A stretch of DNA of 64,000 nucleotides from an uncultured Rhodospirillales bacterium (lineage in GTDB: Bacteria; Pseudomonadota; Alphaproteobacteria; ATCC43930; CGMCC-115725). The notes under the pieces were generated by a model. That model had not been told where the DNA came from. It was given only the letters and a program-made list of their open reading frames with translations, and ran no database searches. The stretch spans positions 1 through 64,000 of the forward strand of contig CAIJOA010000039.1 of NCBI GenBank assembly GCA_903822185.1. The letters are read 5' to 3'. The position numbers and the translations under genes were made by a program. Positions 1 to 6,310 of the stretch are shown here, piece by piece; positions within the stretch are counted from its first letter, which is position 1, and every line of letters begins with the position of its first letter.

Positions 1-1919
<1,919 letters not shown>

Positions 1920-1943: not shown

Positions 1944-3368
1944 TCACGCGGAATCCCGCTTGCGCGAGATCACATAGGATTCGTCCCAGAACCACAATCC
2001 GCCGTGTTTCTGCAACACTTCCTTGGTTGCTTCAAGATAGCTGTTGTCGCTGATGACTTTGGACAGCCGCTGATCTTCGATTTGAGCCACGTAGATCGCC
2101 GCATTCCAGGCAGCAAAAAGCGTGGAGGTGCCAATCGTTTCACTGACTTCGCTTGGCAGGGTGTGCATAGCATATCGGAACAGCGAACGGGCATCCGAAT
2201 ATGCGTTAAAATTGAGATCCCGCCCTGCACTGCCCAATTCAGCCTTAACCGCCCGCAATAAGCGATGCCTATCGGTCATAAACGGGTTTTCGCCGGGCCA
2301 AACCTTCTGGATAATCTCGAGTCCCGGGTCCTGGCCATGGGAATGGATACCGATCAGACGCCCGCCCGGCGCCAGGGCGCGGGACAGCGGCGCGATAACC
2401 TTCGAGGCTTTGAAGTCCACCGAGGCGCGTGCGCGGTAGGGCTGCGAGGCGATGACCAGGTCGTAGTCGGCTCGGGTCGCGCCGCGGCGGGGGCGAAGTT
2501 GATCCAAGAGGAACTTGTAGTCCTCGCGGTACAGCACAAGAACAACCGGCTTTTCGTAGATCGGATTGCCAGTCTTGGGGCTCGATTTGGCCTTCCAATT
2601 CTGGGACAGGAAGCCCTGGAGCTCGGTGATCTGGGACTCGAATTCATGCGCCGTGTTGCCCAGCAGGCTCTGCTCGTGCCAGACGAGGCTGGTCGCTGCA
2701 GTGACGGAGTTCGGCGTCAGCCAGGGCGCCTCGGCGTAATACATGTTGGTTAGGACCAGCACGGTCGAGGGATGCTCGAAGAACCGGTCGGGCATCTTTT
2801 CGAGCGTCAGGCGAACGTCTTCGAGACTGATTTCCTTACCGACAATATATGAGGGTACCGTCGGAAACCGTTGGTGCATCGAACGCATGACACGGGTCAG
2901 AACCGTGCCGTCGCCGACGCCGGCATCGAAAATCCGCAGGCCCGGCGGATGTGGATGAAGGTTTGCCAGCTCCATCGAGACCCGGTCGGCTACCACCCAC
3001 TTCTCGCTGCAGGTGTTGACGAACAGAAGGTATTTCTGCCGGTTGTCGAAGAAACGGAAATTCTTATCCGCCTCCTGTCCTTCGGGAACCGGCCCCTCCG
3101 GAACCGCGTCAGCCGGTGGCGGCGTCAGCGCCGGCATCGTTTCCGCGAAAGTCTGGGGCGGGGTTCGCCGGTTTGCGGGATCGGTGTCGGCCTGGCGGGT
3201 CATGAACGACCGCACGCGTTCGACGGTCTTGCCGCGGACGCGGCCACCGAACCGAAGGCGGCTTACCAGCTTGCCGTCATTGACGGCCAGGCGGCCAAAC
3301 GTTGATTCGGCCATGCCGACACGGCGGCAATAACCGGAAATTTCTTGCAGGAGCGCTTCGCTCTCCAC
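1944..3368 (-). CDS. Putative HTH-like/SAM-binding Rossmann fusion protein upstream of metK
   Basis: A 474-residue protein with three visible parts. Residues 1-60 are basic and resemble a small helix-turn-helix module (GMAESTFGRLAVNDGKLVSRL, then TVERVRSFM). Residues about 65-100 are a proline/glutamate-rich linker. Residues about 105-470 are a class I methyltransferase-like Rossmann domain with motif I FDAGVGDGTVL at 147-157. The likely start is GTG, with GGGAGA and AAGG upstream; ATG at residue 19 is possible. It is first in the unit with metK and ahcY. Family knowledge supports SAM binding; I infer either an RNA/protein/small-molecule methyltransferase or a SAM-responsive regulator. The enzyme substrate cannot be told from sequence. 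Confidence 0.72.
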   Translation of the reverse strand: MESEALLQEISGYCRRVGMAESTFGRLAVNDGKLVSRLRFGGRVRGKTVERVRSFMTRQADTDPANRRTPPQTFAETMPALTPPPADAVPEGPVPEGQEADKNFRFFDNRQKYLLFVNTCSEKWVVADRVSMELANLHPHPPGLRIFDAGVGDGTVLTRVMRSMHQRFPTVPSYIVGKEISLEDVRLTLEKMPDRFFEHPSTVLVLTNMYYAEAPWLTPNSVTAATSLVWHEQSLLGNTAHEFESQITELQGFLSQNWKAKSSPKTGNPIYEKPVVLVLYREDYKFLLDQLRPRRGATRADYDLVIASQPYRARASVDFKASKVIAPLSRALAPGGRLIGIHSHGQDPGLEIIQKVWPGENPFMTDRHRLLRAVKAELGSAGRDLNFNAYSDARSLFRYAMHTLPSEVSETIGTSTLFAAWNAAIYVAQIEDQRLSKVISDNSYLEATKEVLQKHGGLWFWDESYVISRKRDSA

Positions 3369-3450
3369 GGCCTTTCTCTCCCTTCGAGCGGCTTATTTGC
3401 CGCGCAGGCCGTAAGCAAGCCGTAACCGAAGCGAGCAATCAACCTCAATT

Positions 3451-3541
3451 TCGCCCACTCTGAAAGTGGGAAATTGAAGTGGGCGATAATTTGCTCATAA
3501 CGCTGAATTATCAACAATTTTGGGCAAATTTTCGCCCACTT
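3451..3541. promoter_or_regulatory. Repeated AGTGGGCGA boxes forming an 18-bp inverted repeat
   Basis: TCGCCCACT occurs at 3451-3459 and 3532-3540, and its complement AGTGGGCGA at 3478-3486. The outer pair forms arms AAGTGGGCGATAATTTGC (3477-3494) and GCAAATTTTCGCCCACTT (3524-3541), 17 of 18 positions complementary. A further hairpin CCCACT/AGTGGG lies at 3454-3470. On the minus strand a candidate promoter (TTGATA, 17 nt, AATTAT) sits between and over the arms, upstream of the SAM-binding fusion gene. The layout suits an operator for autoregulation, but a structured RNA leader is also possible. Confidence 0.5.
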
Positions 3542-3546
3542 TTAGG

Positions 3547-4662
3547 TCAGCCCCAGACTTCCTTGGCCACTTCGACGACCAATTTGAGCTTTTCGATCTC
3601 CTCGCCCACCGTGATGTCGTTGCCTTCGATGGTGCTGGAGAAGCCGCATTGCGGGCTCAGCGCCAGCCGATCGAGCGGGCAATATTTCGCCGCAGCTTCG
3701 ATTCGGCGCTTCAGGCTGTCCTTGGTTTCGAGTTTCGACAGCTTGGTCGTGACCAGTCCGAGGATCACGGTCTTGCCGGCGGGCACAAAACGCAGCGGCG
3801 CGAAATCGCCCGATCGCTCATCGTCATATTCGAGGAAATAGCCGGTGACATTCACCTGGTTGAACAGCACGTCGGCGACCGGCTCGTACCCGCCCTCAGC
3901 GACCCAGGCGCTTTTGAAATTGCCGCGGCAGAGATGCATCGCGACCGCCATGTCGTCGGGTTTCCCCGCGAGCGAATCATTGATCAGCTTGGCATAGGTC
4001 TGCGGCAGGCTGTTCGGGTCGCTGCCGATATTCTGGACCTGCTCGCGCAGCTTCGGATCGCAGAGATAGGCGAAGTTCACTTCGTCGATCTGGAGATAGC
4101 GGCAGCCGGCGTCGGCAAGGTCTTTGACCTCTTCGCTATAGACGCGGCCCAGATCGGCATAAAACTCGCCGAGGTCGGGATAGGCCTTCTCGTCGATCGC
4201 TTTGCGGCCGCCGCGGAAGTGCATGTTGCTGGGTGCCGGGATGGTGATCTTCGGCGTGACCTTGGTCACCGATTTCAGAAACTTGAAATGCTCGACGAAG
4301 ATCGGATGCGGCCGCGCCAGCTTGCCTTCGACACGGATGCCCGGCGGCGCGAACTCGATGTCGCCTTCATGGGTATGGAACTTCGCCTTGATGCTGGGCG
4401 GAATGACTTTGACGTTCGAGAACTGCTCGAGGAAATCGAGATGCCAATAGGTCCGGCGGAATTCGCCATCCGTCGTGACCTGAAGGCCGATATTTTCCTG
4501 CAGCTTCACCACCTCCCGGATCGCTTGATCCTCGACCTTGCGCAGATCGTCGGCGGAAATCTCGTTGCGCTTACGCTGATCGCGCGCGTCGAGCAGAAAC
4601 TGCGGGCGCAACAAGCTGCCGACATGGTCGGCGCGGAAAGGCGGGGTCGTGCGGGGTGCCAT
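3547..4662 (-). CDS. Core MetE-like zinc methyltransferase (YxjG/YxjH type)
   Basis: A 371-residue protein equal to the C-terminal catalytic half of cobalamin-independent methionine synthase, without the N-terminal half. N-terminal signature FRADHVGSLLRP; zinc ligands visible as H243 and C245 (MHLCRGN), E278 (GYFLEYD) and C339 (SPQCGF). Family members move a methyl or alkyl group onto a thiol such as homocysteine; some short forms are folate-independent methionine synthases. Its place next to metK and ahcY supports a methionine role. Start chosen at ATG 4662, with GGAG 6 nt upstream, rather than the TTG one codon earlier. A paralogue lies at 56417-57547. Confidence 0.86.
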   Translation of the reverse strand: MAPRTTPPFRADHVGSLLRPQFLLDARDQRKRNEISADDLRKVEDQAIREVVKLQENIGLQVTTDGEFRRTYWHLDFLEQFSNVKVIPPSIKAKFHTHEGDIEFAPPGIRVEGKLARPHPIFVEHFKFLKSVTKVTPKITIPAPSNMHFRGGRKAIDEKAYPDLGEFYADLGRVYSEEVKDLADAGCRYLQIDEVNFAYLCDPKLREQVQNIGSDPNSLPQTYAKLINDSLAGKPDDMAVAMHLCRGNFKSAWVAEGGYEPVADVLFNQVNVTGYFLEYDDERSGDFAPLRFVPAGKTVILGLVTTKLSKLETKDSLKRRIEAAAKYCPLDRLALSPQCGFSSTIEGNDITVGEEIEKLKLVVEVAKEVWG

Positions 4663-4680
4663 CAAATGCTCCGTTGTTCG

Positions 4681-4719
4681 TCAATCAGCGAAATAAACGC
4701 GGAGGATCGCCTTGGTCAT
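4681..4719 (-). CDS. Possible 12-codon leader peptide before the MetE-like gene
   Basis: ATG at 4719 has a strong ribosome site (GGGGAGG about 8 nt upstream) and encodes MTKAILRVYFAD, then TGA, ending 18 nt before the MetE-like ATG. Upstream lies a small hairpin (GCGCGG/CCGCGC around 4780-4800). The peptide has no run of a single regulatory amino acid, so classical attenuation is not evident. It may be a translated leader, or chance. Confidence 0.3.
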   Translation of the reverse strand: MTKAILRVYFAD

Positions 4720-4822
4720 GCTGCGCCCTCCCCTGTCGCGCTCGGCTTTATGCCGGTCGCCAGCCCGTATTAAGTCGCGCGGAAAACCACCGCGCAAGTT
4801 TTTTGCTGCCCACGCCGCGCCT

Positions 4823-6310
4823 CTAGGGCGCGGCGGGTGACTCCGGCGTATCGTCGATCTGATCCTTGCTCGGGAGCGCCTTCGCATCCCAGCCGCCGCC
4901 TAGCGCCTGGACGAGATTGACGCTCGCCACCAAGCGGCTCCGGCGGATATTGACCGCCGTTTCCTGATTCGACAGCGAGGTTCCTTGCGCGGTCACCACG
5001 GTGGTGAAATCGACCGTACCGGCGCGATACTGGTTGAGCGCCAGTTGCTCGGCTTCGCGTGCGGCCGCGACGGCGGCGCCCTGTACGGCTGCTTGCTGCT
5101 CGAGAATACGCACAGCGGCGAGCTGATCCTCGACCTGCTGGAACCCGGTCAATACGGCCTGGCGATATTGTGCAACCGCTTGATCGTAGGTCGCGCGTGC
5201 TTCTGCCACCTGCGCGGCGGTCAGCCCGCCATTAAAGATCGGCAGATTGATGCTGGTGAGACCGAACGACCAGAGGCTGCTGCCTGCGCTCAAAAGCTTG
5301 TTCAGCATCGAGCTTTGCTGACCGTAAGATGCGCCGAGCGTGATCGTCGGATAATAACCGGCAACGGCGACGCCGATCCGCGCATTAGCGGCGGCCATCG
5401 AACGTTCGGCAGCGGCAATCGTCGGATTGCGTTCGAGCAAGACGGACGGCAAATCCGGCGGTGTGACGGGGATGTCATCCGCGATCTTCGACGGCGTAAT
5501 GGTGAGGTCCGCCGGCGCCTTGCCGATCAGCACGGCGATCGCATGTTCGAACTGAGCGCGCTGCACACCGGCGGCAATCGATTGCGCCCGTGCATTCTCA
5601 AGCTGCGCTGTCGCCGAGGCGAGATCGGTACGCGCGGCGACACCGGCGTTATAACGATTGCGCGTGATCTGCATCGAGCGGTCGAAACCCGCGACCTCGG
5701 CATCGAGCAACTGTTTCAGCTCGTCATTGACGCGAAGCTGGAAATAATCGGCGGCGAGCGTCGCCTGCGCCGAGAGCCGCGCCGCCGCGAGATCGGCTGC
5801 GCTGGCCTGGGCATTCGCAACGTCGCTTTCGACCGTGCGGCGGATCGAGCCCCAGATATCGGGCGTCCAGCTTGCCTGCAAACCAACCGCGAATGAATTC
5901 GACGCCGTACCACCGCGGTTCGCGCTTGTGCTGCTCGAACTGCTGTTTGATGAACTGGTCGCGCCCCGCCCGCTGCGCGTCGCGCCGCCGGTCCCGCCCA
6001 GCGTCGGGAAAAAGCCGGCGCGCGCCTCGCCGACGATCGCTTCGGAGGCGCGGTAAGCGGCTTCGGAGGCCTTGAGCGTCTGATTGGAAATATCGATCTG
6101 GCGTTCGAGCCCATCGAGGATCGGATCGTTATAGATCGACCACCAGGCATCGTTGCTCGCCACCAGTTGCGGCGAAGCCGGTTTCCAGCCGTCGGCTTCC
6201 TTGTAATGCGTCGGCACGACCGCTTGCGGACGTTGGTAATCCGGACCGACGGAGCAACCCGCTACGGCGATGGCGATCAAGCCAATCGATATCGACGATA
6301 CGCGCCTCAT
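4823..6310 (-). CDS. RND efflux outer-membrane lipoprotein, NodT family
   Basis: Outer-membrane channel (TolC-like) that completes the tripartite pump encoded upstream. Begins [19 protein letters not shown], a lipoprotein signal peptide with lipobox AVAG-C, then SVGPDYQRP, the usual NodT start. About 495 residues; two coiled-coil/OEP repeats. A serine-rich low-complexity insertion sits near residues 110-140. The chosen ATG at 6310 overlaps the upstream permease stop as ATGA and has GAGGAG upstream; an in-frame earlier start would add a 19-residue tail before the signal peptide. Last gene of the mdt-like operon. A 8-bp hairpin (GCCGCGCC/GGCGCGGC, about 4814-4834) covers the stop codon. Confidence 0.93.

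Follow-up and report, generated by a model that had tools for sequence, protein, structure and literature searches.

A predicted HTH-methyltransferase fusion protein with a GTGGG/CCCAC operator array: probably a new family of methionine-cycle regulators in proteobacteria

Methionine synthesis in proteobacteria is controlled by the regulators MetJ, MetR, SahR and SamR and by riboswitches (PMC4239095). A further arrangement has been described in Brevundimonas, where ArsR-M, a fusion of an ArsR-type HTH with a methyltransferase, is coded by the first gene of metRFHH and binds its own promoter (PMC10190100). Leyn and colleagues listed several methionine genes, for example betaproteobacterial metK, to which no regulator could be assigned (PMC4239095). 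SAM, SAH and SAM-SAH riboswitches, which are elements of the leader RNA, also control metK, ahcY and related genes. MetJ, the regulator of gammaproteobacteria, is a small ribbon-helix-helix protein.

Here we analyze a gene that heads metK and ahcY in a window of 64,000 nucleotides (bases 1-64000 of contig 39) from a 4.27-Mb draft genome that holds a single copy of it, the nearest relative coming from an uncultured Rhodospirillales MAG. The protein and its neighbors are arranged as follows.

1944-3368 (-): HTH-methyltransferase fusion protein, 474 aa, GTG start (open reading frame; orthologues in more than 80 genomes)
3186-3365 (-): predicted N-terminal lambda-repressor-like HTH, residues 2-61 (AlphaFold2 pLDDT 87, PDB fold matches, conservation)
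3042-3173 (-): proline-rich linker, residues 66-109, predicted to be disordered (pLDDT <50)
1962-3059 (-): predicted class I SAM-methyltransferase-fold domain, residues 104-469 (match to 2aou)
2907-2930 (-): SAM motif I FDAGVGDG, residues 147-154 (alignment of 43 orthologues)
753-1919 (-): metK, SAM synthetase, co-directional with the fusion gene and 24 bp beyond its end, an order shared by relatives
1-750 (-): ahcY, SAH hydrolase, cut by the contig end
3547-4665 (-): MetE-like synthase of the PRK06520 subfamily (NCBIfam NF005085, E 2.6e-141)

A sequence-only reading of this locus had proposed an HTH-like N-terminus, a proline-rich linker and a SAM-type Rossmann domain, and the predicted structures bear this architecture out. 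The AlphaFold2 model built with 43 orthologues places helices at residues 3-17, 21-29, 34-39 and 46-61, followed by the linker and a Rossmann-type C-terminal domain, whose best fold match is histamine methyltransferase 2aou (Z 18.7, rmsd 3.8 over 264 residues). This predicted Rossmann-like fold together with a motif I of the form DAGxGDG assigns the domain to the class I SAM-dependent methyltransferase fold. In the alignment of the 43 orthologues the domain is very highly conserved, and residues D148, A149, G150, G152 and D153 of motif I, as well as K178 and E179, are invariant. The N-terminal domain modeled alone is a helical bundle without a wing, and its PDB matches are mostly lambda-repressor-like HTH proteins, at middling scores (Z 5-7, Foldseek E >0.2); the predicted recognition helix carries the invariant pattern VNDGK...R.R. 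Sequence matches for this domain are weak, the best being Pfam HTH_26 (E 0.013, in 6 of 40 members), and an ArsR-family Pfam match is absent from all members searched. The complete 474-aa protein matches nothing in Pfam, NCBIfam or the PDB sequences, so that the whole-length homology to a known methyltransferase that the sequence-only reading had named as refuting was not found. The models suggest that a DNA-reading domain has been coupled to a methyltransferase-like domain that would bind SAM, in a family that appears undescribed; a literature search that left most subscription journals outside its scope found no paper describing an HTH-methyltransferase fusion family of this kind.

The closest likeness is to SahR and ArsR-M, which combine an HTH with a SAM-dependent methyltransferase domain, as is predicted for the fusion family, and likewise head a methionine operon. 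Their HTH, however, is of the winged ArsR type, whereas that of the fusion family is predicted to be lambda-repressor-like; their operators are AT-rich palindromes (CTTTATATAAAG for ArsR-M), whereas the fusion family has GTGGG/CCCAC arrays; and the family has neither an ArsR nor a methyltransferase family match. The fusion family would work like ArsR-M but is an unrelated version of it and not a member, having another HTH and another operator. With MetJ it shares tandem operator repeats, methionine and SAM genes as probable targets and SAM as the proposed co-effector, and differs in its boxes and in being a fusion of an HTH with a methyltransferase fold. Cro/C1-type (XRE) regulators such as SinR, HipB and the restriction controller proteins resemble it in the predicted HTH fold of residues 2-61, but there is no significant sequence match, and here the HTH is joined to a methyltransferase fold. 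The suggestion in the sequence-only reading that a protein reading SAM and controlling metK-ahcY would be a new solution was overstated, since MetJ, SahR and SamR (PMC4239095) and an ArsR-HTH/methyltransferase fusion (PMC10190100) were already known as SAM- or SAH-reading regulators of met genes.

The linkage to metK extends to other methionine and one-carbon genes in relatives. In the Bradyrhizobium/Rhodopseudomonas group metK lies downstream of the orthologue in 48 of 48 loci. Among the other 41 loci, a divergent MTHFR gene is found downstream in 24 (followed by a MetE-like gene in 6 of these), metF in 5 (one of them also with metK and ahcY) and metK alone in 3, and none of these genes occurs within the examined stretch in 8. 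In two MAGs, one labeled gammaproteobacterial, the opposite side is occupied by metA and an O-acetylhomoserine sulfhydrylase gene. The MTHFR-like proteins coded immediately after the fusion gene in most loci outside Bradyrhizobium (for example L003:2904-3824, L033:3322-4203, L046:4402-5328 and L095:5407-6333) form a divergent family of their own, matching Pfam MTHFR at E 1e-8 to 1e-11 and falling far below the NCBIfam cut-offs.

In the window, the MetE-like synthase gene ends just short of a set of short repeats upstream of the fusion gene, in which we recognize the following elements.

3439-3485 (-): operator core CCCAC-8-CCCAC-7-GTGGG-11-TTGAT (profile match E 1.5e-8 in its own genome)
3479-3483 (-): half-site CCCAC, in gene direction
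3466-3470 (-): half-site CCCAC, in gene direction
3454-3458 (-): half-site GTGGG, in gene direction
3437-3442 (-): -35 element TTGATT of the fusion gene's promoter (TTGA invariant in 23 aligned promoters)
3521-3539 (-): distal palindrome GTGGGCGAAAATTTGCCCA, with two more half-sites

The three AGTGGGCGA boxes noticed earlier lie at 3451-3459 (-), 3478-3486 (+) and 3532-3540 (-), with no other exact copy in the 64 kb, and the 18-bp arms that contain two of them, 3477-3494 and 3524-3541, agree at 17 of 18 positions and belong to a 24-nt inverted repeat (3477-3500/3518-3541) that is 88% complementary. Copies with one mismatch number 9 in the window against 18 expected, rarer than chance, and the cluster is therefore local. 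The boxes had also been said to overlap a candidate promoter, and the promoter-side half-sites with the TTGATT -35 element do form a pattern conserved in orthologues, although the -10-like hexamer of the window promoter is weak.

The same array, CCCAC-7-GTGGG-11-TTGAC with TTGAC as the -35 element, precedes orthologues in alpha-, beta- and gammaproteobacterial genomes, so that the check proposed by the sequence-only reading, a search for box arrays upstream of orthologues, found them in place. The gaps are exactly 7 and 11 in 23 promoters, additional half-sites are usual about one turn (~12 bp) farther upstream, and a -10-like hexamer usually lies 17 bp past TTGAC. Altogether, 34 upstream regions contain 108 half-sites, against 19 expected from first-order shuffles. 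The Bradyrhizobium/Rhodopseudomonas group has a different layout in which the boxes extend to the start codon; in Bradyrhizobiaceae there are 2.4 boxes per 110 bp against 0.6 expected and 0.4 in control stretches, and a 45-bp layout is conserved in 35 loci. Conservation within the array is limited to the half-sites, their spacing and a promoter-side TGGTTGA stretch. What orthologues keep is a GTGGG/CCCAC half-site that recurs with each helical turn, and not the 9-mer AGTGGGCGA.

Two other readings fare badly against this pattern. The repeats could be an RNA element in the leader, a riboswitch or a terminator, as their 24-nt hairpin-forming repeats would allow; but the array lies upstream of the conserved -35/-10 pair and hence outside the transcript, conservation in it is confined to the half-sites, their spacing and the TGGTTGA stretch, and Rfam finds no family in the window and none credible at 3300-4850 with a relaxed threshold, in agreement with the earlier statement that no SAM or SAH riboswitch was recognizable. 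We regard an RNA element as highly improbable. Just as hard to credit is an ordinary methyltransferase whose N-terminus resembles an HTH by chance and whose boxes are coincidental: its fold does resemble small-molecule methyltransferases, but HTH and operator are conserved together across classes, and the box statistics speak against coincidence.

Whether the HTH itself reads GTGGG can be judged from its relatives. When 240 genomes sampled from the class were searched with an HTH profile, 24 proved to have relatives, as stand-alone proteins, as AMP nucleosidase fusions and as fusions with CysD (sulfate adenylyltransferase subunit 2), the last with the same N-terminal HTH in two alphaproteobacterial families; an order-level search for CysD fusions covered 2 genomes. 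CysD and methyltransferase fusions have NDGK..(S/A)RL(K/R).GG in common and little else, and the regions preceding six CysD fusions contain 9 GTGGG-N6-CCCAC palindromes against 0.09 expected, whereas diverged stand-alone HTH relatives have 0 upstream. Two orthologues of the methyltransferase lack the HTH (L014:428-1678 and L047:3863-5209), and boxes are absent from one of these, while nothing comparable to the array is seen at the other. In these observations we see the strongest argument for GTGGG being read by the HTH itself. The CysD-fusion promoters were taken from the upstream 250 bp at L276, L277, L278, L281 and L290-L295, where some palindromes abut the start codon, and HTH-CysD is a candidate self-regulating enzyme of sulfate assimilation.

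A sequence-only operator profile was searched in 55 genomes, 32 of them carriers of the gene and 23 non-carriers. It matches the gene's own promoter in nearly all carriers, mostly at E <1e-4, the three carriers without a match being G035 (a partial gene at a contig edge), G047 (an HTH-less gene) and G074. Among non-carriers, 3 of 23 gave chance-level matches (E 0.35-0.45), the remaining 20 gave none, and nothing fell below E 0.34. Since matches to the members from which the profile was built are to be expected in any case, the informative results are these clean negatives and the secondary matches, which lie at the formate-THF ligase gene in G001 (E 3.4e-6), an unlinked metK in G062 (E 0.005) and a MetE-like gene in G014 (E 0.17). 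Furthermore, unlinked metK is preceded by phased half-sites in 8 of 21 carriers but in none of 25 non-carriers (Fisher p 0.0008, ignoring relatedness); several carriers lack boxes at unlinked metK, and unlinked ahcY had no phased boxes in any carrier examined. Boxes at metK, formate-THF ligase and MetE-like genes would also be expected if a different regulator bound them and the fusion gene were one target among others. We consider this improbable, since the 23 genomes without the fusion gene lack the motif, genes sharing only the HTH, the CysD fusions, have the same motif, and the array is missing or not comparable where an orthologue lacks the HTH.

Weak profile matches at L171-L178, mostly inside or beside unrelated genes, were set down to chance. 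A box pair GCCCAC-N5-GTGGGC at G000:C30:39269-39311 (L103, L180), in the same genome as the window and between genes for an aldehyde dehydrogenase and a ModE-like regulator, was likewise rejected as a target (E 0.2, probably chance).

In many proteobacteria the fusion gene stands ahead of genes for methionine and SAM synthesis, with a GTGGG/CCCAC array in its own promoter, so that its product probably represents a new family of methionine-cycle regulators. The explanation we favor, and hold to be likely, is a transcription factor of the methionine/SAM cycle that regulates its own gene and whose DNA binding is set by SAM or SAH. The lambda-repressor-like HTH would bind GTGGG half-sites spaced roughly one helical turn apart, upstream of the -35 element and in contact with it, and the methyltransferase-fold domain, to judge from its fold and invariant motif, would bind SAM or SAH and thereby set DNA binding; fold, motif and targets together point to SAM or SAH as the natural ligand. 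Its own operon (metK-ahcY, or MTHFR-like/metF plus MetE-like genes) would then follow SAM supply, as would some unlinked metK, formate-THF ligase and MetE-like genes. We lean towards repression, in which SAM would be the co-repressor much as in the MetJ system, over activation, because the boxes overlap the core promoter in betaproteobacterial metK and adjoin the start codon in Bradyrhizobium and in CysD fusions; placement upstream of the -35 element would also suit an activator.

The methyltransferase-fold domain may also be a working methyltransferase, and an enzymatic role of its own is suggested by the two orthologues without the HTH, one of which (L014, with a lysine-rich N-terminus) is directly followed by metF. 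In its strongest form this gives a trigger enzyme (a term discussed in PMC4848566), that is, an enzyme-type domain coupled to DNA reading, its activity here being putative: an active methyltransferase of the methionine/one-carbon pathway would regulate its own operon through the HTH and sense its methyl acceptor or product rather than the SAM level. Besides the HTH-less orthologues, the very high conservation of the domain, the fusion of the same HTH type to the genuine enzymes CysD and AMP nucleosidase, and the precedent of ArsR-M, both regulator and methyltransferase (PMC10190100), speak for it. However, no family match in Pfam, NCBIfam or the PDB sequences suggests a substrate, and the target genes all set methionine/SAM flux and not one specific methylation. 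We take this reading to be unlikely, though clearly the strongest of the alternatives.

The family supplies a concrete candidate protein, with its operator and probable targets, for part of the unassigned methionine regulation in alpha- and betaproteobacteria and in some gammaproteobacteria (Bradyrhizobium and Rhodopseudomonas included). Should the ligand be SAM or SAH, methyl-cycle sensors made of an HTH and a methyltransferase would have arisen on two or more occasions, from HTHs that are not related to each other. The CysD fusions point to a module that can be carried from one metabolic enzyme to another, making each its own regulator. A broader proposal, to which we give slightly less than even chances, is that the NDGK-type HTH is a small DNA-reading module which, always with the one operator code GTGGG-N6-CCCAC, was combined with different enzyme domains of sulfur and one-carbon metabolism (methyltransferase and CysD) to give self-regulating enzymes across proteobacteria, the methyltransferase version being a SAM/SAH-sensing regulator independent of SahR/ArsR-M. 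Other proteins with this HTH type were also seen: at L264:1299-2972 it is fused to AMP nucleosidase, with no GTGGG boxes in the 260 bp upstream, and two tandem copies of the small HTH domain are found at L273:1300-1719, L286:1018-1746 and L288:3-719.
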